Shown piece after piece: positions 4,349 to 28,128 of a stretch of DNA of 36,720 nt (position 1 is its first letter; each line of letters begins with the position of its first letter). Both the position numbers and the translations under genes were made by a program. Source of the stretch: an uncultured Gammaproteobacteria bacterium (GTDB lineage Bacteria > Pseudomonadota > Gammaproteobacteria > Arenicellales > JAANXG01); contig CAMYNX010000009.1 in NCBI GenBank assembly GCA_947259875.1, positions 1 through 36,720 on the forward strand, in the 5' to 3' direction. The notes beneath the pieces are model-generated. The model made no database searches. It worked only from the letters and a program-made list of their open reading frames with translations, and had not been told where the DNA came from.

Positions 4349-5641
4349 ATGACCGATGTGGTCGCAACCAATGAAACGATCTTGGTAGTAGGAGGCGGTA
4401 TCAGTGGCATGACTGCCGCGCTGGAAGCAGCAGAGTGCGGTAAACAGGTGGTACTGGTTGAGAAAAACCCCTCCGTTGGTGGACGGATAGCGCAGCTGTA
4501 TAAGTATTTTCCCAAGCTCTGCCGGCCAAGCTGTGGCCAGGAAATTAATCTGCGCCGGCTCAAAGTCAACAAGAGAATTCGACTTTTGACGATGGCCGAA
4601 GTTACTAACGTTGACGGCGCGGCGGGTGACTATGACGTCTCCATTACTATTCACCCCCGCTATGTAAACGAAAATTGCACGGCTTGTGGTGCCTGTGCCG
4701 AAGCGGTAACCGCGGAGATCGACGATCCATTCAATTACAACATGAAAACGATCAAAGCGGCCTATTTACCCTACAACATGGCTTATCCGCAGCGCTATGT
4801 GATTGATCCGTCAATCGTGGGCAGCGAAGACGCGAACAAGGCAAAAGCCGCTTGCAAGTACGACGCGATCGATCTCGACATGCAAGAGCAGACGATCGAA
4901 ATCAAAGTGGGCGCCGTGATTTGGGCCACCGGTTGGCGGCCCTATGATGCAGCCAAGATTCAACCTTATGGATACGATCGGTATCCCAATGTGATCACCA
5001 GCGTCGAATTCGAGCGCATGATGGATCCCTTCGGTCCCACCGGCGGCAAGTTATTGCGTCCTTCCGACGCTAAGGAGGCCAAGAGCATTGCCTTCATCCA
5101 GTGCGCCGGTTCACGAGACCGAAACCACCTGACGCATTGCTCGCGCATCTGCTGTATGGCCTCGCTAAAGCAGTCAACGTATATTGGTGAACAATACGGC
5201 GATGACGCTGATGCCAAAGCCACCATTTATTACATCGACATCCGCGCCATCGACCGGTTTGAGGACTTCTATAAGAAAGTCCAGGCGGATGAAAAAGTCC
5301 ATTTTATAAAGTCCAAGGTGGCTAACATCACCGAGAATCGAGATACCGGTGATGTTGTGCTGCATGGTGTCGACACCGAGGGTTATCACCGCTACGACAA
5401 TACCCACGATCTGTGTGTGCTGGCAATCGGCATGGAACCCAGCGTGAGAGCAGACCAGATCGCCGATAACGTTTCCGCCGATGCCAGTGGTTTTATTCAA
5501 ATGAATGGGGCCGGTGGGGCTATATTCGGCGCGGGCTGCGCCACTAATGCCTTGGACGTCAACCGAGCAGTGCAGAGCGCGACCGCGGCGACGCTACGCG
5601 CCATCCAAGTCGTCAATCGTGTATCGAGCGCGGAGGCCTGA
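4349..5641 (+). CDS. qmoA: Quinone-interacting membrane-bound oxidoreductase complex subunit A
   Basis: A 430-residue HdrA-like flavoprotein. The FAD-binding GGGISGMTAALEA motif starts near residue 15. The segment around LCRPSCGQEIN (near residue 52) is characteristic of QmoA, and CTACGAC near residue 110 and CSRICC near residue 265 supply cysteines of the HdrA type. QmoA is the flavin subunit of the complex that passes electrons between APS reductase (AprAB) and the quinone pool: towards APS in sulfate reducers, and away from it in sulfur oxidisers. GGAGGA eight bases before the ATG fixes the start. It heads a tight operon with qmoB, hdrC and hdrB. It shares architecture with the FAD part of qmoB, so the two are paralogues. 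No aprAB lies in the window. Confidence 0.92.
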   Translation: MTDVVATNETILVVGGGISGMTAALEAAECGKQVVLVEKNPSVGGRIAQLYKYFPKLCRPSCGQEINLRRLKVNKRIRLLTMAEVTNVDGAAGDYDVSITIHPRYVNENCTACGACAEAVTAEIDDPFNYNMKTIKAAYLPYNMAYPQRYVIDPSIVGSEDANKAKAACKYDAIDLDMQEQTIEIKVGAVIWATGWRPYDAAKIQPYGYDRYPNVITSVEFERMMDPFGPTGGKLLRPSDAKEAKSIAFIQCAGSRDRNHLTHCSRICCMASLKQSTYIGEQYGDDADAKATIYYIDIRAIDRFEDFYKKVQADEKVHFIKSKVANITENRDTGDVVLHGVDTEGYHRYDNTHDLCVLAIGMEPSVRADQIADNVSADASGFIQMNGAGGAIFGAGCATNALDVNRAVQSATAATLRAIQVVNRVSSAEA

Positions 5642-5645
5642 AAAA

Positions 5646-7907
5646 ATGTCTGAAAACAAGACCGCGGCGTATGTATGTAAGGGTTGTGGTATCGGCGACC
5701 GCTTGGATACCGATCAACTGGCTAAGATCGCGGAGAGCGAAGGTAAATGCTCCCTCGTTCGCCAGCACGATTTCTTATGCAATGCAGACGGCGTCAACAC
5801 CATCCGCAATGATATCGAAGGCGAAGGCGTCACCCATGTGGTGATTGCAGCCTGCTCACGTCGTGCCAAGACCGACGCGTTTGGATTTGATGACGTGGCT
5901 CTCGGGCGCGCAAATCTGCGAGAGGGAGTCATCTGGGTACGTCCCGATGCCGAAGAGGCCAGAGAAACCACCCAGGAAATGGCCGATGATTATCTGCGCA
6001 TGGCTTGCGCGGAGATCCAGTACATGAAACAACCCGCGGCCAATCAGAATGCGGGCACCAACAAAAACATCCTGGTCGTGGGCGGCGGTGTCAGCGGTAT
6101 GACCGCAGCGCTCGAGGCATCCAAGGCCGGATACGGGGTATTGCTGGTCGAAAAGACCGGTCAACTCGGCGGCTGGGCGGCAAAGCTATACAAACGCGTG
6201 CCCGATCGCGAGCCGTTTGCTGACCCACAAGACACTGGCGCGAGCGATCTAATAAAGTCCGTGGAACACGACAAGAACATCACCGTGTTCGTGAATAGCT
6301 CGATTACCCGAACCAGCGGTGCCCCCGGGCAGTTCAGTATTGATATCAGCGCCGAAAGTGGTGAGACGGTGACCGAAAACGTGGGCAGTATTATCCAGGC
6401 GAGTGGTTTTTCCAATTACGATGCCAACCAGTTGCCCGAGCTAGGCTACGGGAAGAGCCCGGATGTGGTCGATCAAGCGGAGCTCGAGCAATTAGCAAAA
6501 CAGGCCGCGGACGGTCCCATCAAGCGGCCGTCGGACGGTAAGGAAGTCGAGAGTGTCGTCTTCGTTCAATGCGCGGGGCAGCGTAGCGACAAACAGGGCC
6601 ACCTCCCCTATTGTTCCGGCCATTGCTGCAATACCAGCATTAAACAAGCGATGTATTTCAAGGACTCAAACCCCAACGTCGATACGATGGTGATGTACGA
6701 TGATCTGCGCACCCCGGGTAATGGCGAGGACTTTTATCGTTCGGCGCAAAGAAAGGGGGTAAGCTTCACCAAGGGTAAGACGCACCAGGTCAATCCCGTA
6801 AATGGCCAGTTGGAAGTCAAGTTCCACGATATGATCCTTGGTGAAGATGCGGTGGCAAAAGCGGACTTGGTGGTGTTGGCGACCGGTCAAGTCGCCAATT
6901 CGGGTGTCGACATCGAGCAAGCGACAACACTGGAGGTTGAGGATGAAGACGGACAGTCTGAGGCGACCGCTGAGGCCGACACCAGCGAGGTTCAAGTCCC
7001 GGTGGAATCCATACTCAACCTCACTTACCGTCAGGGTGTTGACTTGCCCCATCTGCGCCATGGGTTTAGCGACTCTCATTTCATATGTTTTCCTTATGAA
7101 ACTCAGCGTAGCGGCATCTATACCTGCGGTCCGGTACGGCGGCCAATGGACATTGTGCAAACGATGGAAGATGCCACCGGCGCCGCTCTCAAAGCAATTC
7201 AAGCGGTGGAGAACGCAACGTTGGGACGCGCTGCTCACCCACGCTCCGGTGACTTGAGTTTCCCAAGCTTCCGCCGCGAGGGTTGTACCCAATGCAAGCG
7301 GTGCACGGTGGAATGCCCATTCGGCGCCATCGATGAAGACGAACAACGTTATCCGGTATTCAATGAGTCTCGATGCCGACGGTGCGGAACCTGCATGGGG
7401 GCGTGTCCAGTACGGGTGATTTCATTCGAGAATTATTCCGTCGACACCGTTGGACAACAGATCAAGACCGTGGATATGCCCGATGAGTTCGATGAAAAGC
7501 CGCGCATTCTGGTGCTGGCCTGCGAGAACGATGCCTACCCGGCTCTGGATATGGCGGCCCAACAGGGCCTGGAGTACAGTGCATTTGTTCGCATCGTGCC
7601 GGTGCGCTGTCTCGGCTCGGTAAACACCATCTGGGTCACCGATGCCCTGAACAGCGGTTATGACGGCGTCATGTTAATGGGGTGTAAAAAGGGTGACGAC
7701 TACCAGTGCCATTTTGTGAAGGGCTCGGAACTGGCGCATTATCGGATGAGCAAGATCGACGACACATTGCAGCAACTACAGCTGGAGCCCGAGCGCGTGC
7801 AGACGTACGAAGTGGAAATCACCGACATCCAAAGATTGCCGACACTCATAAACGAGTACGTGGCCAAGATCGATGAAATCGGAATGAACCCGTTCAAGGG
7901 CTTTTGA
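5646..7907 (+). CDS. qmoB: Quinone-interacting oxidoreductase complex subunit B (HdrA-ferredoxin-MvhD fusion)
   Basis: About 753 residues from the ATG at 5646, four bases after the qmoA stop and preceded by GGAGG that lies inside the last qmoA codons; longer open-frame starts overlap qmoA and are unlikely. Domains in order: an N-terminal HdrA-type region with VCKGCGIGD near residue 10; an FAD domain with GGGVSGMTAALEA near 145; an HdrA-like cysteine cluster (CSGHCC) near 325; two [4Fe-4S] ferredoxin motifs, CTQCKRCTVECP near 547 and CRRCGTCMGACP near 577; and an MvhD-type [2Fe-2S] domain from about 620, with Cys residues in VRCLGS and MGCKKGDDYQC. This is the standard QmoB layout. An acidic, low-complexity stretch near residues 435-455 (EVEDEDGQSEATAEAD) is probably a flexible linker. 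It should relay electrons between QmoA and HdrCB. Confidence 0.92.
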   Translation: MSENKTAAYVCKGCGIGDRLDTDQLAKIAESEGKCSLVRQHDFLCNADGVNTIRNDIEGEGVTHVVIAACSRRAKTDAFGFDDVALGRANLREGVIWVRPDAEEARETTQEMADDYLRMACAEIQYMKQPAANQNAGTNKNILVVGGGVSGMTAALEASKAGYGVLLVEKTGQLGGWAAKLYKRVPDREPFADPQDTGASDLIKSVEHDKNITVFVNSSITRTSGAPGQFSIDISAESGETVTENVGSIIQASGFSNYDANQLPELGYGKSPDVVDQAELEQLAKQAADGPIKRPSDGKEVESVVFVQCAGQRSDKQGHLPYCSGHCCNTSIKQAMYFKDSNPNVDTMVMYDDLRTPGNGEDFYRSAQRKGVSFTKGKTHQVNPVNGQLEVKFHDMILGEDAVAKADLVVLATGQVANSGVDIEQATTLEVEDEDGQSEATAEADTSEVQVPVESILNLTYRQGVDLPHLRHGFSDSHFICFPYETQRSGIYTCGPVRRPMDIVQTMEDATGAALKAIQAVENATLGRAAHPRSGDLSFPSFRREGCTQCKRCTVECPFGAIDEDEQRYPVFNESRCRRCGTCMGACPVRVISFENYSVDTVGQQIKTVDMPDEFDEKPRILVLACENDAYPALDMAAQQGLEYSAFVRIVPVRCLGSVNTIWVTDALNSGYDGVMLMGCKKGDDYQCHFVKGSELAHYRMSKIDDTLQQLQLEPERVQTYEVEITDIQRLPTLINEYVAKIDEIGMNPFKGF

Positions 7908-7921
7908 GCAGGAGGAATGTA

Positions 7922-8545
7922 ATGAGTGACGTCAACACCGCCATGGTCCAGAAATATCGTAACGATTTTCTCAAAGAAGTCGAAGAAAACGTTGAAGAAG
8001 GCCATTGGGTAAAGATGTGTATGCAGTGCGGTGTGTGTTCAGGCTCCTGCCCATTCGGACCCGACTGGGATCACCCACCCCAAGAGATATTCATGATGAT
8101 CCGGGCCGGTAAACGTGATGAGGTTTTGACTACCGAGTCGATGTGGATGTGCACTTCTTGCTACAACTGTATCGTCCGTTGTCCGCGAGAACTGCCGATA
8201 ACCCATATCATGCATGGGCTGGCTAACTATGCCCACCGCCTGGGTATTGCGCCGAAGATGAATCCGACGCGCCGCTTTTCAAAAATATTTTGGAACAATA
8301 TCGCCAAGACCGGGCGCGTCAACGAATTGGCGCTGTCGCTGAAGTTATACTTCATGGATGGCTTCATGAGCGGTATCAAGAACGCGCTGGCGATGGCGGG
8401 CGTTGGTATCGGCATGCTCAAGACAAAACGACTAAATCCGTTCGCGCTCATTAACCATAAAGGCGTGAAGAATCCCAAAGAGCTTCATGTGCTACTGAAG
8501 AAGGCTCGAGAGATTGAAGATCGGCGCAAGGGCATAGCCAGGTAA
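7922..8545 (+). CDS. hdrC: HdrC-like iron-sulfur subunit of the Qmo complex
   Basis: A 207-residue protein with two complete [4Fe-4S] motifs: CMQCGVCSGSCP near residue 33 and CTSCYNCIVRCP near residue 77. AGGAGG lies at a normal spacing from the ATG at 7922, 14 bases after the qmoB stop. In the classical QmoC subunit an HdrC-like domain is fused to a membrane-bound haem b domain. Here the protein ends without any hydrophobic span long enough to cross a membrane, so it is the stand-alone soluble HdrC form. Together with HdrB downstream it replaces QmoC, an arrangement described for Gram-positive sulfate reducers and some sulfur oxidisers. Its likely role is to wire QmoB to the HdrB subunit. 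The symbol follows the family and not a proven heterodisulfide reductase activity. Confidence 0.88.
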   Translation: MSDVNTAMVQKYRNDFLKEVEENVEEGHWVKMCMQCGVCSGSCPFGPDWDHPPQEIFMMIRAGKRDEVLTTESMWMCTSCYNCIVRCPRELPITHIMHGLANYAHRLGIAPKMNPTRRFSKIFWNNIAKTGRVNELALSLKLYFMDGFMSGIKNALAMAGVGIGMLKTKRLNPFALINHKGVKNPKELHVLLKKAREIEDRRKGIAR

Positions 8546-8557
8546 CGGGAGTTCGTC

Positions 8558-9463
8558 ATGGCCAAGAAAGAATATTCATTTTATCCAGGTTGTAGTTCAG
8601 AACGTAAGGCCTCGGCCTCTAATTACATGGTGTCAGTTGACGCGATGTGCAAAAAACTTGATATCAAACTCAATGAGATCCCCGATTGGAATTGCTGCAG
8701 CGCCTCGATCGGCTACGCCGAGGGAGGAGAGTTACCACGTCATGTCATGAATGCGAGAAACATCGCGTTATCCGAACAACACAGTCCTGGCCAAGATATC
8801 GTCGCCACCTGCGCTGCGTGTTGGCTTGGCGCCAAAGAGACCGCTGATCGTCTCGATGCTTCCGAACAGCTGCTTGCGGACACCAAGGAAGTCCTCAAAG
8901 AAGCAGGACTCGATATTCACTTGAAAAATGAGACTCCGATTCGGCATATGGTCGAAGTCTTGATTGAAGACATCGGCTACGAAGGTATAAAAGAACCGAT
9001 GGTGAAATCCTTGGAGGGGATCAAATTTGCGGGGTACGTCGGATGCCAGACCAATAGGCCGTTTGGTGTCGACGGCGAATCGTTTGAAAACCCCGTGTAT
9101 CTGGATAAGATGGTTGAGACCGTCGGCGGTGAAGCCATCACGGACTACGAAAAAAAGGTAACTTGCTGTGGCGGTGCTCTCGCGTTTTCGGAACCCAAAA
9201 AGAGCCAGAAACAGATCAAAGATATCATCGAGGCTGCCTACGACCAAGGCGCCGACATGATCGTAACGCCGTGCCCGGTATGTCAAATGAATGTCGAGGT
9301 GTATCAAGATCAAATCAATAAACACTATGGAACCAAATTCCATATTCCGGTGACCTACTACAGCCAGTTGTTGACGGTTGCTTACGGTGGCAGCGCCAAG
9401 GAAGCGGGCCTTGACGGCAATATTGTCCGCGCCAAACAGCTCGAGGAAATCGCGGCGAAATAG
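8558..9463 (+). CDS. hdrB: HdrB-like CCG-domain subunit of the Qmo complex
   Basis: A 301-residue protein with two cysteine-rich CCG domains. The first has Cys in GCSSE, NCCSA near residue 47 and TCAACW near residue 85; the second has GCQTN near 168, TCCGG near 205 and PCPVCQ near 240. In HdrB these cysteines hold the non-cubane iron-sulfur clusters at the disulfide-reducing site. Here the subunit ends the qmoAB-hdrCB operon, 12 bases after hdrC, with GGGAG before the ATG. The natural partner (a heterodisulfide, another thiol, or a quinone reached through a further protein) cannot be read from the sequence. A strong hairpin terminator lies 35 bases downstream, so the operon ends here. Confidence 0.88.
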   Translation: MAKKEYSFYPGCSSERKASASNYMVSVDAMCKKLDIKLNEIPDWNCCSASIGYAEGGELPRHVMNARNIALSEQHSPGQDIVATCAACWLGAKETADRLDASEQLLADTKEVLKEAGLDIHLKNETPIRHMVEVLIEDIGYEGIKEPMVKSLEGIKFAGYVGCQTNRPFGVDGESFENPVYLDKMVETVGGEAITDYEKKVTCCGGALAFSEPKKSQKQIKDIIEAAYDQGADMIVTPCPVCQMNVEVYQDQINKHYGTKFHIPVTYYSQLLTVAYGGSAKEAGLDGNIVRAKQLEEIAAK

Positions 9464-23248: not shown

Positions 23249-24244
23249 CTAATTCAGCCTGCTATGAGTACCGGTATCTCGTAAAACGTCTGTGTACGAG
23301 GACAGATCGTGGGCATTGAGCAATTCTCGGGCCGAGACCGGTGTCTCCAGTGGGCACAATCCGACCGAGGCTGCGAGTTGTCCGACCAACTGCGCCGGTT
23401 TTCCTCCTCGAGCACGAAACATCACGATCGATTCGGAACCGTCACGCTTGGACATCCGATTGCCATCGTCGTCTGCCAACAGCGGCACATGCCAGTAGCG
23501 TGGCGCTGGCAAGTCTAATGCACTAAGCAATGCTAATTGCCGCGGTGTGGATTCGCGCAGGTCAACACCACGCACAACGTCGGTGACACCCATTAATGCA
23601 TCATCAACCACCACCGCGAACTGGTAAGCAAAAACGCCATCTGATCGCCGCACCACGAAATCACCGACATCATGGCTGAGGTCCTGAACGATCGAACCCG
23701 TGACCACGTCCTCAACCTCGATCCTCCCGGCACCGACTCGATACCGCAACGCGGCCGAACGTATACCGTTGTTCCCGAAAGCCGATTCTTGTTCGCGACA
23801 CGTGCCCGGATATATGGGCCCGTCAGACCCATGAGGCGCGCTGGCCGCCTGCTGAATGTCCTTGCGGGAACAGAAACAGGGAAAGATTGTGTGTGCATCT
23901 TGTAACCGGGACAACGCGGTCGCATAGACACCATCCCGAGCCGATTGTTCGTAGGGACCGGTTTTGCCACCGACGTCCGGTCCTTCATCCCAATCGAGGC
24001 CCATCCAGCGCAAGTCATTGATAATCTGTTCGGCGCAACCCGGCCGCACCCTCGATCGATCGAGGTCTTCCATGCGCATGACAAATCGCCCACCAGCTAA
24101 TCGTGCCTGCAACCATGCCAACAACGCTGTACGCGCATTTCCCAGGTGTAACGGTCCGGATGGACTGGGTGCATAGCGGCCACCGGGCGCCCGATCTCGC
24201 AGGCGAATGGCGCGATCCAACATTCGCTCGTACTCAGAGGTCAT
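23249..24244 (-). CDS. gluQ: Glutamyl-Q tRNA(Asp) synthetase
   Basis: A 331-residue class I aminoacyl-tRNA synthetase catalytic core without an anticodon-binding domain, as in GluQRS (E. coli YadB, about 300 residues). It has GRYAPSPSGPLHLGNAR (HIGH-type motif, residues 22-38), a zinc site CFCSRKD...YPGTC (near residues 117-145) and the KMSKS-type motif NRMSKRDGS (near residue 252). The enzyme attaches glutamate to the queuosine base in tRNA-Asp. The ATG at 24244 overlaps the stop codon of the DsrE-like gene (ATGA), so the two are translationally coupled. Here gluQ is not next to dksA, its frequent neighbour. Confidence 0.93.
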   Translation of the reverse strand: MTSEYERMLDRAIRLRDRAPGGRYAPSPSGPLHLGNARTALLAWLQARLAGGRFVMRMEDLDRSRVRPGCAEQIINDLRWMGLDWDEGPDVGGKTGPYEQSARDGVYATALSRLQDAHTIFPCFCSRKDIQQAASAPHGSDGPIYPGTCREQESAFGNNGIRSAALRYRVGAGRIEVEDVVTGSIVQDLSHDVGDFVVRRSDGVFAYQFAVVVDDALMGVTDVVRGVDLRESTPRQLALLSALDLPAPRYWHVPLLADDDGNRMSKRDGSESIVMFRARGGKPAQLVGQLAASVGLCPLETPVSARELLNAHDLSSYTDVLRDTGTHSRLN

Positions 24245-24720
24245 TCAACGACGATGAGACGGTAGCCAAGTTCCACGTATTGCTGCGCCTGTGCCGGCCC
24301 CACCGCGGCAACATCCACGTAATCGGGAAACGCATCCGGCGGAATATCGTACCAACTGGCGTGGGTGCCGCAGACATGTACCGGGATATCATCCGCAGTG
24401 GTCATTTGCTTCACCAGACTATGCAGTTGCCTATAACGATCGGTCTTATCGGTGGTGAGGGCAAATTGCTCCGCGCCATGAGTGACTATCGCTATCGAAA
24501 GGCCGTGAAATCGGGCGCGTAATCGCTCGCTTTCTTGACGCAGCCTGGGCACTAAGGTGACGAGCCGATCCGGATCGCCGCTGATAATTTCAAACACCAC
24601 GCCGGATGGGGCTTGGGTCAGAGAAATGATCTCATCTACTTCACCACGCAGATCAGCCGTCGCAGACCATGCTGGAAACAAAAGCAGTGACAATAATATG
24701 AACTTGTTACGTATCGACAT
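24241..24720 (-). CDS. Secreted DsrE-like protein
   Basis: About 159 residues from the ATG at 24720 (a TTG one codon upstream is also possible). A signal peptide (MSIRNKFILLSLLLFPAWSATA) is followed by a DsrE/DsrF-like fold: VVFEIISGDPDRL near residue 40, LSIAIVTHGAEQFAL near 75 and the loop VHVCGTHAS near residue 115, whose single Cys sits where sulfur-carrier DsrE-like proteins have their active Cys. Periplasmic DsrE-like proteins are found in sulfur oxidisers, but their function is mostly unknown. The stop codon overlaps the gluQ start by 4 bases. Element copy 6 begins 15 nt upstream of the ATG, so no ordinary promoter region is visible. Confidence 0.8.
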   Translation of the reverse strand: MSIRNKFILLSLLLFPAWSATADLRGEVDEIISLTQAPSGVVFEIISGDPDRLVTLVPRLRQESERLRARFHGLSIAIVTHGAEQFALTTDKTDRYRQLHSLVKQMTTADDIPVHVCGTHASWYDIPPDAFPDYVDVAAVGPAQAQQYVELGYRLIVVE

Positions 24721-24735
24721 CAATTTAGGTTCGTC

Positions 24736-24817
24736 TAGCCCGCATGTTGCATCAAGGATCCCGGATCATGGCGAAGGGACTTGTGCTGCGCGTAGTTCCC
24801 CTGCTGTGCGGGGACCG
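24736..24817. repeat. TIR element copy 6, right end missing
   Basis: It starts TAGCCCGCATGTTGCATCAA, continues GGATCCCGGATCATGGCGAA and the GTGCTGCGCGTAGTTCCCCT module up to the GCGGGGACCGGG word, then stops matching; no right inverted repeat follows. The element is therefore truncated. It lies 15 nt upstream of the DsrE-like start codon. The rest of the 428-base gap up to the cytochrome gene (24818-25151) has an AATCAACGTTGATT palindrome at 24829-24842, no convincing gene and the cytochrome terminator. Confidence 0.8.
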
Positions 24818-25093
24818 GGCGACACATAATCAACGTTGATTATAGTGCGTATATCGTTCTAATTGGCCCATATCTTCAGCAACAGCCTGCAAATCCAACG
24901 TAACCCGGCAACTTGATCATCGCTGAGTGCTTGACGGCACCGGGTAAGCACAGATCTTTTTTGTGTCTTCAGGAATCCATTTCGCCGTGTCACGCATGCC
25001 AAAGTCAAGCATCGTCAATTCTATCTTCGCAACGCGTTTCCCTGGCAATACGCGGATCAACAGCATTAGCTGCTCGTTGATTCTTGTAATGAT

Positions 25094-25126
25094 AAAAAAA
25101 GGCGCGAGACAACAATATCTCGCGCC
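25094..25126 (-). terminator. Rho-independent terminator of the cytochrome c gene
   Basis: On the minus strand GGCGCGAGA pairs perfectly with TCTCGCGCC (9 bp) around an 8-base loop and is followed by seven T. It lies 26 bases after the cytochrome c stop codon. Confidence 0.92.
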
Positions 25127-25151
25127 CACGGACCTAACGTAACCTGATGGA

Positions 25152-25466
25152 TTACTTGGAACTATCAAGCATGTAAGTGACGGCCTCTTTAACCTGATCG
25201 TCGCTCAGATTTGCAAAGCCTCCCTTGGGCGGCATGTAACCGGCTTTGCCTTGATAACCTTTAATCGCATGCTCAACCAATGTATCCATACCTTGACCAA
25301 GGCGGTCTTTCCAAACACCGCTATCGCCGACTTTCGGCGCGCCGGCTACACCGGCCGCATGACAGGCGGCACACGACGAATCGTAGGTCGCCTTACCGTC
25401 GGCGATGACGTTGGACGATGAGAGCGCAATGGCCATCACGCTCCCCACAAACAGCAATTTACGCAT
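25152..25466 (-). CDS. Cytochrome c5-type protein
   Basis: A 104-residue periplasmic monohaem cytochrome. Signal peptide MRKLLFVGSVMAIALSSSNVIA, haem-binding CAACH near residue 34, and the distal Met in GYMPPKGG near residue 77, the signature of the cytochrome c5 (CytC5/CycB-like) group. It should carry electrons in the periplasm, for instance to a terminal oxidase or a sulfur or metal oxidase system. AGAGG before the ATG at 25466 supports the start. It follows the Met-rich gene by 37 bases on the same strand and is closed by a strong terminator, so the two are probably one transcript. Confidence 0.92.
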   Translation of the reverse strand: MRKLLFVGSVMAIALSSSNVIADGKATYDSSCAACHAAGVAGAPKVGDSGVWKDRLGQGMDTLVEHAIKGYQGKAGYMPPKGGFANLSDDQVKEAVTYMLDSSK

Positions 25467-25503
25467 AAGATTTTCCTCTTAGATGGTCGGTTAAGGGTTT
25501 GGT

Positions 25504-26205
25504 TTATTTCTTCTCAGGCTGTGGCGTCATCTCTTGCATCTGCTTCATCCATTGATCCATAAAGTTTATCTGAGACTGAGGCGCAGGCTGATTGAAATAA
25601 GGGCCCATGGCGCCCGGACTAGTCATAGACGGGTTGACCATCCCCATTGGATTTGTCATCGACGTCATGGGATTCATCATTCCACTCATGGGGTTCATCA
25701 TTCCACTCATGGGGTTCATCATTCCACCCATGGGGTTCATCATTCCACCCATGGGGTTCATCATTCCACCCATGGGGTTCATCATTCCACCCATGGGGTT
25801 CATCATGCCGGTCATGGGCATCATCATCGGTGCCATCATGGGTCCCATCATCATGGGATTCATCATCATCATCGGCGCCATCATGGGTCCCATCATCATC
25901 ATCGGATTGGCCATGGTCATCGGATTCATCATCGAACTGCCCATGCTCATCGGGTTCATCATCGGACTGCCCATGCTCATCGGGTTCATCATCGGACTGC
26001 CCATGCTCATCGGGTTCATCATCGGGTTGGCCGGCACGGACGAACCATGCCCGGCTTGACCGGATTGCATCCCACCCATCATCTGGGACATCATTTCGGT
26101 GTACGCCGCCATGGAATCATCTGAGTCGGCGGCCCGTACGCTTCCGATAACACATATAGTCGCTATCATCAGAGAAAGCGCCGAGAGTTTCTTTATGGAG
26201 TGCAT
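25504..26205 (-). CDS. Secreted methionine-repeat protein
   Basis: A 233-residue protein with a signal peptide (MHSIKKLSALSLMIATICVIGSVRA) and a long low-complexity core in which about one third of all residues of the protein are Met. Two repeat types are visible: NPMSMGSPMM (10 residues, about three copies, residues 60-90) and GMMNPMG/S (7 residues, eight copies, about residues 130-185), separated by PMM-rich sequence. The C-terminal part (INFMDQWMKQMQEMTPQPEKK) is not repetitive. Met-rich motifs of periplasmic proteins bind Cu(I) or Ag(I), so a copper-handling or oxidant-scavenging role is possible; this is inference. CAGGAG before the ATG at 26205 supports the start. The cytochrome c5-type gene follows on the same strand. 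Confidence 0.85.
   Translation of the reverse strand: MHSIKKLSALSLMIATICVIGSVRAADSDDSMAAYTEMMSQMMGGMQSGQAGHGSSVPANPMMNPMSMGSPMMNPMSMGSPMMNPMSMGSSMMNPMTMANPMMMMGPMMAPMMMMNPMMMGPMMAPMMMPMTGMMNPMGGMMNPMGGMMNPMGGMMNPMGGMMNPMSGMMNPMSGMMNPMTSMTNPMGMVNPSMTSPGAMGPYFNQPAPQSQINFMDQWMKQMQEMTPQPEKK
25668..25815 (-). repeat. 21-bp tandem repeat coding GMMNPM
   Basis: Eight near-identical 21-base units (plus-strand wording ATTCCACCCATGGGGTTCATC or with CTC for CCC) encode successive GMMNPMG or GMMNPMS blocks. The near identity at the DNA level points to recent expansion by slippage or recombination. Confidence 0.85.
25925..26035 (-). repeat. 30-bp tandem repeat coding NPMSMGSPMM
   Basis: About three and a half units of 30 bases (plus-strand words CATGCTCATCGGGTTCATC and ATCGGACTGCC) encode the 10-residue block NPMSMGSPMM in the same secreted protein. 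The last unit is slightly diverged. Confidence 0.8.
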
Positions 26206-26446
26206 TCGTTCAGCTCCTGTTTGCTAACGATCATTTTACCGAATTTCCAACAACGTATTGAGGCAAAAAATTTGCTTAGCCCAAAACGTCGCGCAGATGT
26301 AACCATCGACACGCGCCGCTCCACGACAACACTCGAATTCTAGCGGCTTCTTTGGCGCTACGGCAGCGTGCGAATATACGTTGATTTTACGTTTGTAGTC
26401 GGACAGATGAAACAGTTCGTATTTATACGCCTATAAGCACCGCGGG

Positions 26447-28024
26447 TCAGTGTTCACGGGTAGCCCGGAACTCAACATCGGGCCATCTCTCGGTGGTGAG
26501 CCGCAGATTAACCAAGTTCGGCGCAATGTAGGCCAGGCTGCCGGTCCCATCAACCGCCAGATGATTTTCGACTTTGTGGCGGAATTCCTCCTCAAGTTTA
26601 GGGTCCTCGCAGTGGACCCAACGTGCTGTGGCGACGCCGATCGGCTCAAAGGTGCACTCGACGCCGTACTCGTAACGTAATCGGTGCGCGACTACATCGA
26701 ATTGTAGCGCGCCGACCGCACCAAGAATCAAATCGTTATTCGTGAGCGGCCGAAACAATTGGGTGGCGCCTTCCTCACTTAGCTGTACGACACCCTTATG
26801 CAACGCCTTGGCCCGCAATGGATCTCGCAGCTGTACGCGACGAAACAGTTCGGGCGCAAAGTTGGGTATTCCCGAAAATTTCAAATCCTCACCCTCGGTG
26901 AAGCTGTCCCCGATTTGAATGGTACCGTGATTGTGCAGCCCGATAATATCTCCCGGATAGGCCTCGTCGGCTTGATCGCGTTTGGACGCCATAAAGGTGA
27001 CCGCATTGTGCACGGTAATGTCCCGACCCGCGCGCACGTGATGTAGTTTCTTGCCCTTTGCGAATCGACCCGAGGTTACGCGCACAAACGCGATGCGATC
27101 GTGATGCGCAGGATCCATGTTTGCTTGTATCTTGAATACGAAACCAGAGAACTTCACCTCGTCCGGGGATACGTTGCGATTAGCAGCATTACGGGCTCTC
27201 GGTGACGGCGCGTACTCGACAAAATGATCGAGTAACTCTTGCACACCTTGATCGTTTAATGCGGAGCCAAAAAACACCGGTGTCAACTCTCCCCGCAAAT
27301 AGGCTGTTTCGTTATAAGTATGACTCGCCCCTTGTACCAGCGTTACCTGATCTCGCAACTCGGCTGCCTCCGCACCAAGGTGATGATCCAAATCTTCGTT
27401 GCCTAAACCATTGATCACCGTGTCCTGCTGTGGATTTCCCGCCCGACCGGCGAACAGCAACACACTGTCGTCCACAAACCGGTAGATGCCACGGAACCGG
27501 GCACCGGTCCCGATGGGCCAGGTCATTGGAGCACAGTTGATCTTTAGTACCGATTCGATCTCATCCAGCAGATCGATGGGATCACGACCATCGCGATCCA
27601 TCTTATTAATAAAGCTCATTATCGGTGTATCGCGTAATCGGCACACATCCATCAACTTTATGGTTCGCTCTTCTACACCTTTTGCGGCGTCCATTACCAT
27701 TAACGCTGAATCAACAGCGGTCAGTGTGCGGTAGGTGTCTTCCGAGAAATCCGCGTGCCCGGGTGTATCCAGCAGATTGACGATACGGTGTTTGTACGCA
27801 AACTGCATCACTGATGACGTGACCGATATTCCACGTTGCTTTTCCAGTTCCATCCAGTCCGACGTCACGTAACGGCTGGCCTTTCGGGCCTTCACGGTAC
27901 CGGCAAGTTGTATCGCGCCGCCATATACCAATAGCCTTTCAGTTATTGTGGTTTTACCGGCGTCGGGGTGCGAGATGATGGCAAATGTTCGCCGCCGGGC
28001 GACTTCGTCGAGAAATGCTGACAT
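26447..28024 (-). CDS. prfC: Peptide chain release factor 3
   Basis: About 525 residues from the ATG at 28024 ([14 protein letters not shown]), matching the usual RF3 N-terminus and length (529 in E. coli); an in-frame TTG at 28039 is unlikely. It is a translational GTPase with G1 SHPDAGKTT near residue 18, G3 [15 protein letters not shown] near residue 87 and G4 NKMDRD near residue 140, followed by the RF3-type domains II and III. RF3 recycles RF1 and RF2 from the ribosome after peptide release. It lies alone on the minus strand; upstream is a 359-base gap filled mainly by element copy 7. The 241 bases after its stop hold no gene and probably include the promoter of the Met-rich gene. Confidence 0.96.
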
Positions 28025-28128
28025 CGAAAAATGAACCAAAAACGGGGCGGCGGATTATACCGCGCCACGGCATCTAAACAACCCTTGAGGTCGCATCCAT
28101 CACCCCACCCCTATTCATGAGCGAGATA

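Follow-up and report, generated by a model that had tools for sequence, protein, structure and literature searches.

The Met-Rich Locus

The window, i.e., the whole stretch of 36,720 nucleotides analysed here, carries on its minus strand a gene for a methionine-rich (Met-rich) secreted protein of 233 residues (bp 25504–26205; 31% Met). The assignment is based on translation, orthologs, and dN/dS ratios. The neighbours of the gene in the window are prfC, a c5-type cytochrome gene, a DsrE-like gene, and gluQ. prfC (bp 26447–28039, minus strand) forms the upstream syntenic flank. The cytochrome gene (bp 25152–25466, minus strand) starts 37 bp downstream of the stop codon of the Met-rich gene and encodes a mono-haem cytochrome c of 104 residues. 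This cytochrome is an ordinary, c5-like member of the CxxCH class I fold, with nothing unusual about it: it matches PF13442 (3.9e-15) and, among PDB entries, cytochrome c-555 (4j20, 2.2e-28) and cytochrome c5 (1cc5, 6.6e-12).

Of the terminator-like sites in this region, the best lies directly behind the cytochrome gene: a hairpin of 12 pairs with a 4-base loop and a T run (bp 25100–25127, minus strand), which appears to close a two-gene unit. No minus-strand sigma-70-like promoter was found within bp 24200–26700, a result that says little for this organism. The original prediction that the Met-rich and cytochrome genes are co-transcribed is supported by the 37-bp gap, by the hairpin, and by a gene order that is kept in six relatives; the two genes are probably transcribed together.

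A Methionine-Rich Protein Built on Two DNA Repeats

The first 25 residues (bp 26131–26205, minus strand) form a Sec-like signal peptide, judged by eye from clear n, h, and c regions, with cleavage at an Ala-Ala junction (…GSVRA|AD). The N-terminus is conserved in two relatives, G002 and G004. Met accounts for 73 of the 233 residues and, if cleavage after residue 25 is assumed, for 71 of the 208 residues of the mature part, which further contains 30 Pro, 24 Gly, 19 Ser, 18 Asn, a single His, and no Cys. Residues 38–216 are devoid of Asp, Glu, Lys, and Arg. Although this long segment is uncharged, the GRAVY value of the mature protein is only −0.23.

Two tandem arrays, each with a 94% match, build the core. 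The 30-bp array (bp 25896–26025, minus strand) has 4.3 copies and encodes NPMSMGSPMM-type units, and the 21-bp array (bp 25666–25827, minus strand) has 7.7 copies and encodes GMMNPMG units; in exact form, the 21-bp unit occurs only four times in the window. Prolines in the arrays are spaced 7 or 10 residues apart, and the Met residues are disposed in 31 MxxM and 12 MxM spacings. The protein ends in a conserved, non-repetitive C-terminus, PQSQINFMDQWMKQMQEMTPQPEKK (bp 25507–25581, minus strand), defined by ortholog alignment and dN/dS. Thus, the description in the original prediction of a secreted protein that is one third Met, built by two perfect or near-perfect DNA repeats, holds, and the open reading frame lies exactly at the stated coordinates.

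The Met richness of this reading frame is far above chance. The maximum is 48 Met per 100 residues, as against 8 in 100 Markov windows of equal dinucleotide make-up, and the runner-up among the predicted proteins of the window contains 7% Met. No Pfam or NCBIfam model matches the protein at E values up to 1. Alignment-free structure prediction gave a mean pLDDT of 59 and a pTM of 0.22, with a helix over residues 121–183, and is too weak for a fold search. An antisense His-rich reading frame (bp 25534–26124, plus strand, 196 residues) was rejected as a mirror of the Met repeat, ATG reversed being CAT, a His codon. Elsewhere in the window, at bp 93–351, a 15-bp tandem repeat of 18 copies encodes Lys-Lys-Ala-Thr-Lys on the minus strand and resembles, by eye, the tails of histone H1-like and AlgP proteins.

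Met-rich stretches are familiar from copper proteins, where Ctr1-type Met motifs occur. The Met-only MxxM and MxM spacing and the adjoining cytochrome gene would suit a periplasmic Cu(I) store or chaperone, in which Cu(I) would be bound by clusters of Met thioethers, perhaps for a copper oxidase that takes its electrons from the c5 cytochrome. Well-known copper systems, however, rely on a handful of Met motifs, not on 70 Met arranged in NPM repeats, which counts against this reading, as does a mature part with only one His and no Cys. SilE- and PcoE-type proteins are Met/His-rich and belong to metal resistance operons. They share with the present protein a disordered, Met-rich, and periplasmic character, and SilE (PMC5008109) is an example of a Met-rich periplasmic protein for copper or silver. 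Such proteins contain His, whereas the protein studied here has hardly any, and its locus includes no metal operon. No copper gene is present among the neighbours identified in the window and in the corresponding loci of relatives, where selected reading frames were scanned. The copper store or copper-oxidase assembly factor of the original prediction therefore draws no support from genomic context, and we consider a copper role unlikely.

Orthologs and Turnover of the Arrays

The Met-rich protein is present in four of the five same-genus genomes, and also in G006 and G007. In six relatives the order prfC–Met-rich gene–c5 cytochrome gene is kept as far as the contigs extend, and DsrE-like and gluQ genes come next at most of these loci. 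The synteny spans three genera. Both termini of the protein are conserved in frame among orthologs, and ten pairwise comparisons over the last 48–50 codons gave dN/dS ratios of 0.12–0.47; the reading frame is therefore correct, with purifying selection acting on the C-terminus. In contrast to the ends, the arrays turn over fast: the exact 21-bp unit of the window is found in none of seven ortholog loci.

The arrays also mark the places where the gene is interrupted. In G002 the gene is split over two contigs, the assembly being broken by the array. In G001 (L028:4199-4937) and G004 (L031:4028-4749) the reading frame is interrupted within the Met array, and both frames go on beyond the break. 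These breaks reflect either assembly error or slippage; short-read assembly of repeats can explain them. G003 has 246 bp between prfC and the cytochrome gene and no trace of the Met-rich gene. The breaks, the contig end in G002, and the absence from G003 are the observations that would fit a non-functional reading frame, whether repeat-expanded, decaying, or a product of assembly. Such a frame is very improbable, given that both ends are conserved in frame with C-terminal dN/dS below 0.5, that the gene is intact in the window's genome (G000) and in G005, G006, and G007, that it is syntenic over three genera, and that the breaks are explicable by short-read assembly.

prfC lies directly before the c5 gene, with no Met-rich gene between them, in G003, in a Ca. 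Thioglobus MAG (L059), and in L060. Because the pair occurs without the gene in G003 and in the Ca. Thioglobus MAG, the prfC–c5 arrangement is probably older than the inserted Met-rich gene.

Met-Rich Relatives and Their Genomic Context

A profile of four orthologs found matches in 12 of the 109 genomes of the order. One of these, in G064, was rejected as an artefact, being another frame of a DDRSGKP-type simple repeat. A profile of seven sequences found matches in 9 of the 369 genomes of the class, and here the match in G184 was set aside as a different protein, one of the helix-hairpin-helix type that looks ComEA-like by eye and bears an NPCSMK tail. The remaining class-level matches are secreted proteins that are either Met-rich or built of MNPxxY repeats.

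Scored with the four-ortholog profile (A1), the Met-rich proteins of G046, G082, G012, G292 (two proteins), G321, and G122 each outscored all 200 of their composition-preserving shuffles, so that these seven proteins show an NPM-repeat grammar beyond composition. A reverse search used the A4 profile, built from the Met-rich proteins that bear haem plus a single small haem protein related to them; it has no row from the window's genus and one row from G008, which belongs to the same family. Among 398 genomes of the phylum, it matched a single one, and the match was the window's own gene (E 1.1e-5). The Met-rich proteins of these gammaproteobacterial families and the window protein thus likely belong to one shared family, as judged from their sequences, although common descent cannot be proved from sequence of such low complexity.

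An N-terminal DPxVWxxMMxQMM-like motif precedes CxxCHxxEDxxRY in the haem-bearing relatives. The window protein holds a similar stretch, SMAAYTEMMSQMM, without the haem motif, a likeness seen by eye. Short secreted haem proteins with the two motifs are encoded at L202:7651-8319 (minus strand), L152:1456-2247, L203:8598-9590 (minus strand), and L148:407-826, and in three of them a Met array lies behind; those that were scanned have no Pfam family.

The MNPxxY-repeat proteins were found in 7 of the 369 genomes of the class, with no Pfam match over the cut-off and no NCBIfam match. Three more such secreted proteins are encoded in the window's genome, at G000:C63:21379-21873 (L178), G000:C156:5185-5634 (L177), and G000:C19:11279-11956 (L179). 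In the shuffle test, the C63 and C156 proteins beat all 200 shuffles, and the C19 protein was reached by 2 of 200. Profile comparison of the window protein with the MNPxxY proteins aligned only 19 C-terminal columns, at 70%. Matches of MNPxxY proteins to JmjN and Ty5 gag fell below the cut-off and were taken as chance, and a plasmid search with one MNPxxY protein gave no match.

In several relatives the Met-rich gene sits among genes of sulfur metabolism. The arrangements are as follows. In G122, the Met-rich protein, which has CxxCH, precedes DUF302, SoxZ, and SoxY, in this order, and a YeeE-type sulfur transporter is encoded close by. The order in G321 is MNPxxY protein, DUF302, Met-rich protein with CxxCH, YeeE, SoxB, and thioredoxin. 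The order in G292 is YeeE, Met-rich protein with CxxCH, Met-rich array fused to DUF302, and DsrE2. In G046, DsrE2 and DUF302 follow the Met-rich gene, and thioredoxin lies on the opposite side. The G292 fusion (L202:8345-9598, minus strand) has about 20 NP units and stands beside DsrE2 and the YeeE-type transporter. YeeE-like SoxT proteins are described as importing sulfur for oxidation (PMC11582611), and DUF302 genes as located in the sox clusters of organisms that have no soxCD (PMC5037610). Since DUF302 was found in every one of 22 genomes, whether or not they carry the Met-rich gene, it is informative only where it is adjacent or fused. The window gene itself lies outside any sox, DUF302, YeeE, or DsrE2 cluster, between prfC and c5, and no Met-rich ORF was found in the sox region of G005 (L222) or G006 (L223).

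The union of haem motif and Met array in one polypeptide in G292, G321, and G122, together with the adjacent cytochrome gene in all six relatives that have the Met-rich gene at the locus, raises the question of a c5 cytochrome accessory, i.e., a Met-rich scaffold that would bind or order the haem protein for electron transfer. Against it, the prfC–c5 pair without a Met-rich gene (L059, L060, and G003) indicates that the cytochrome probably came first and works alone, and no comparison made here showed homology between the c5 gene and the short CxxCH segment. We regard the accessory role as decidedly unlikely.

Association with Dissimilatory Sulfur Oxidation

The marker dsrA was scored as TIGR02064 over the cut-off. 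It is present in the window's genome and in 63 of the 109 genomes of the order: in all 11 carriers of the Met-rich gene and in 52 of the 98 others (p = 0.0016). Counting G064 as a carrier changes these figures to 11 of 12 and 52 of 97 (p = 0.0099). In the class set, the window's genome aside, dsrA is found in 7 of 7 carriers and in 15 of 56 non-carriers (p = 0.0003), the latter being the first 56 listed genomes other than carriers out of the 369 rather than a random draw; with G184 as a carrier, the figures are 7 of 8 and 15 of 56 (p = 0.0017). The carriers are few and partly related, with two same-genus pairs, so the independent cases are fewer and common ancestry makes the association look stronger than it is. 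G001:C24, G002:C259, G004:C17, G005:C3, G006:C62, and G011:C26 hold a second, more distant DsrA (about 475 bits), next to a further and weaker match, either additional to or replacing the usual rDsr copy.

As for the Sox pathway, soxB is over the cut-off in six of the seven class-set carriers, the exception being G318 (86% complete), and in all five same-genus relatives of the window's genome; it was not found over the cut-off in the window's own genome, which is 91% complete. It is where a truncated Sox system is combined with rDsr that organisms store sulfur as an intermediate. PF00174 matches in 18 carriers were assigned as follows: SoxC in one (G321), only MsrP in seven, none in nine, and an unclassed fragment in G008. 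Sox systems that have no SoxCD are described as accumulating sulfane sulfur (PMC9959259).

The window also has, at bp 4349–9460 on the plus strand, HdrA-like, HdrA-like, HdrC-like, and HdrB-like genes in a row, a set that we take to be Qmo-like. A Qmo/Hdr-type complex is expected in sulfur oxidisers that use APS reductase.

The same PF00174 survey bears on the oxidant sink proposed in the original prediction. In a sacrificial protein of the MrpX/BcrX kind, Met residues would take up oxidation by hypohalous acids or by other oxidants, and MsrP/MsrQ would reduce them again. The very high Met content and an MsrP gene in the window's genome (G000:C36) would suit such a role, and MrpX of Azospira suillum and BcrX of Brucella, both MXKDX repeat proteins, are likewise short, periplasmic, and Met-rich. 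They are described as co-transcribed with msrPQ, with BcrX controlled by an ECF sigma factor (PMC8315932). The Met-rich locus, by contrast, has no msrPQ operon, and in a list checked by eye no ECF sigma factor was noticed there. MsrP lies elsewhere than the Met-rich locus, is absent from half of the 18 carriers, and is present in three of four family members that have no Met-rich gene; that is, MsrP does not track the gene. The repeat differs as well, being NPM-based and uncharged, not MXKDX, in a protein that matches neither Pfam nor NCBIfam. With no support from genomic context, the oxidant sink is quite unlikely. A true MrpX-like protein with MxKDx/MAKDG repeats was seen in an unrelated gammaproteobacterial MAG (L131:6803-7096, minus strand) and makes a contrast to the NPM type.

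Because dissimilatory sulfur oxidation, and not MsrP, tracks the Met-rich gene, context favours sulfur, and the protein is likely tied to this pathway. It is not essential to the pathway, as G003 has dsrA and soxB yet no such gene at the prfC–cytochrome site.

A Possible Role in Handling Zero-Valent Sulfur

We suggest that the Met-rich protein has a structural task in the periplasm of rDsr-type sulfur oxidisers, as the coat or matrix of globules of zero-valent sulfur. By analogy this is our best explanation, though a tentative one that falls a little short of probable; that the protein handles stored elemental sulfur rather than copper is the more probable of those two alternatives. The Sec-exported, uncharged, low-complexity protein would represent one branch of an unnamed Met-rich periplasmic group tied to the Sox, or zero-valent-sulfur, part of the pathway. 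After cleavage of the signal peptide, the NPM-repeat core, with its thioether side chains and spaced prolines, may be apposed to, or embedded in, the elemental sulfur or polysulfane of the periplasm, and would coat or disperse it in the manner of sulfur globule proteins. The conserved C-terminal helix, NFMDQWMKQMQ, may anchor or assemble the protein. The c5 cytochrome, from the same transcript, would carry the electrons of periplasmic sulfide or sulfur oxidation, and contact between the two proteins would be unnecessary. The sequences themselves show the gene, its export signal (on inspection), its conservation, the layout of the operon, the link to the wider family, and the placement of relatives in sulfur clusters; sulfur binding, the place of the protein in the cell, and any contact with the cytochrome are what we infer.

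Sulfur globule proteins are described as Sec-exported and repetitive, with regularly spaced prolines (PMC10386293; PMC7356093; PMC10892978). By description, then, the Met-rich protein resembles SgpA/B/C/D of Allochromatium vinosum in its probable Sec export (judged by eye), its repeats, its spaced prolines, its lack of charge, and its rDsr-type host. The differences are in size, composition, and hydropathy. SgpA–C are given as 11–13 kDa and called extremely hydrophobic (PMC10386293), whereas the Met-rich protein has 233 residues, is one third Met in NPM repeats, and with its GRAVY of −0.23 does not share the extreme hydrophobicity. Since these properties differ, and since the comparison is by description only, we do not file the protein as an Sgp. 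A search of open-licence PMC papers found no Met-rich sulfur protein of this kind.

A bolder proposal takes in the haem- and DUF302-bearing relatives. The arrays of Met thioethers would make up a sulfur-philic phase, in which periplasmic zero-valent sulfur is dissolved or by which it is coated, and the haem or DUF302 of some members would wire this store to electron transport and sulfur transfer; the lineage of the window would have swapped the haem version for a haem-less protein and a separate c5 cytochrome. We think this scheme rather unlikely as a whole.

Significance

How elemental sulfur is held and re-mobilised in the periplasm is an open question, and the known globule proteins explain only some lineages. 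The Met-rich group, found beside Sox genes and in haem- and DUF302-fused versions, offers candidates for a coat or a relay of stored sulfur. It also gives a handle on DUF302, a domain of unknown function. Finally, it provides a caution: not every Met-rich periplasmic protein need be a copper protein.
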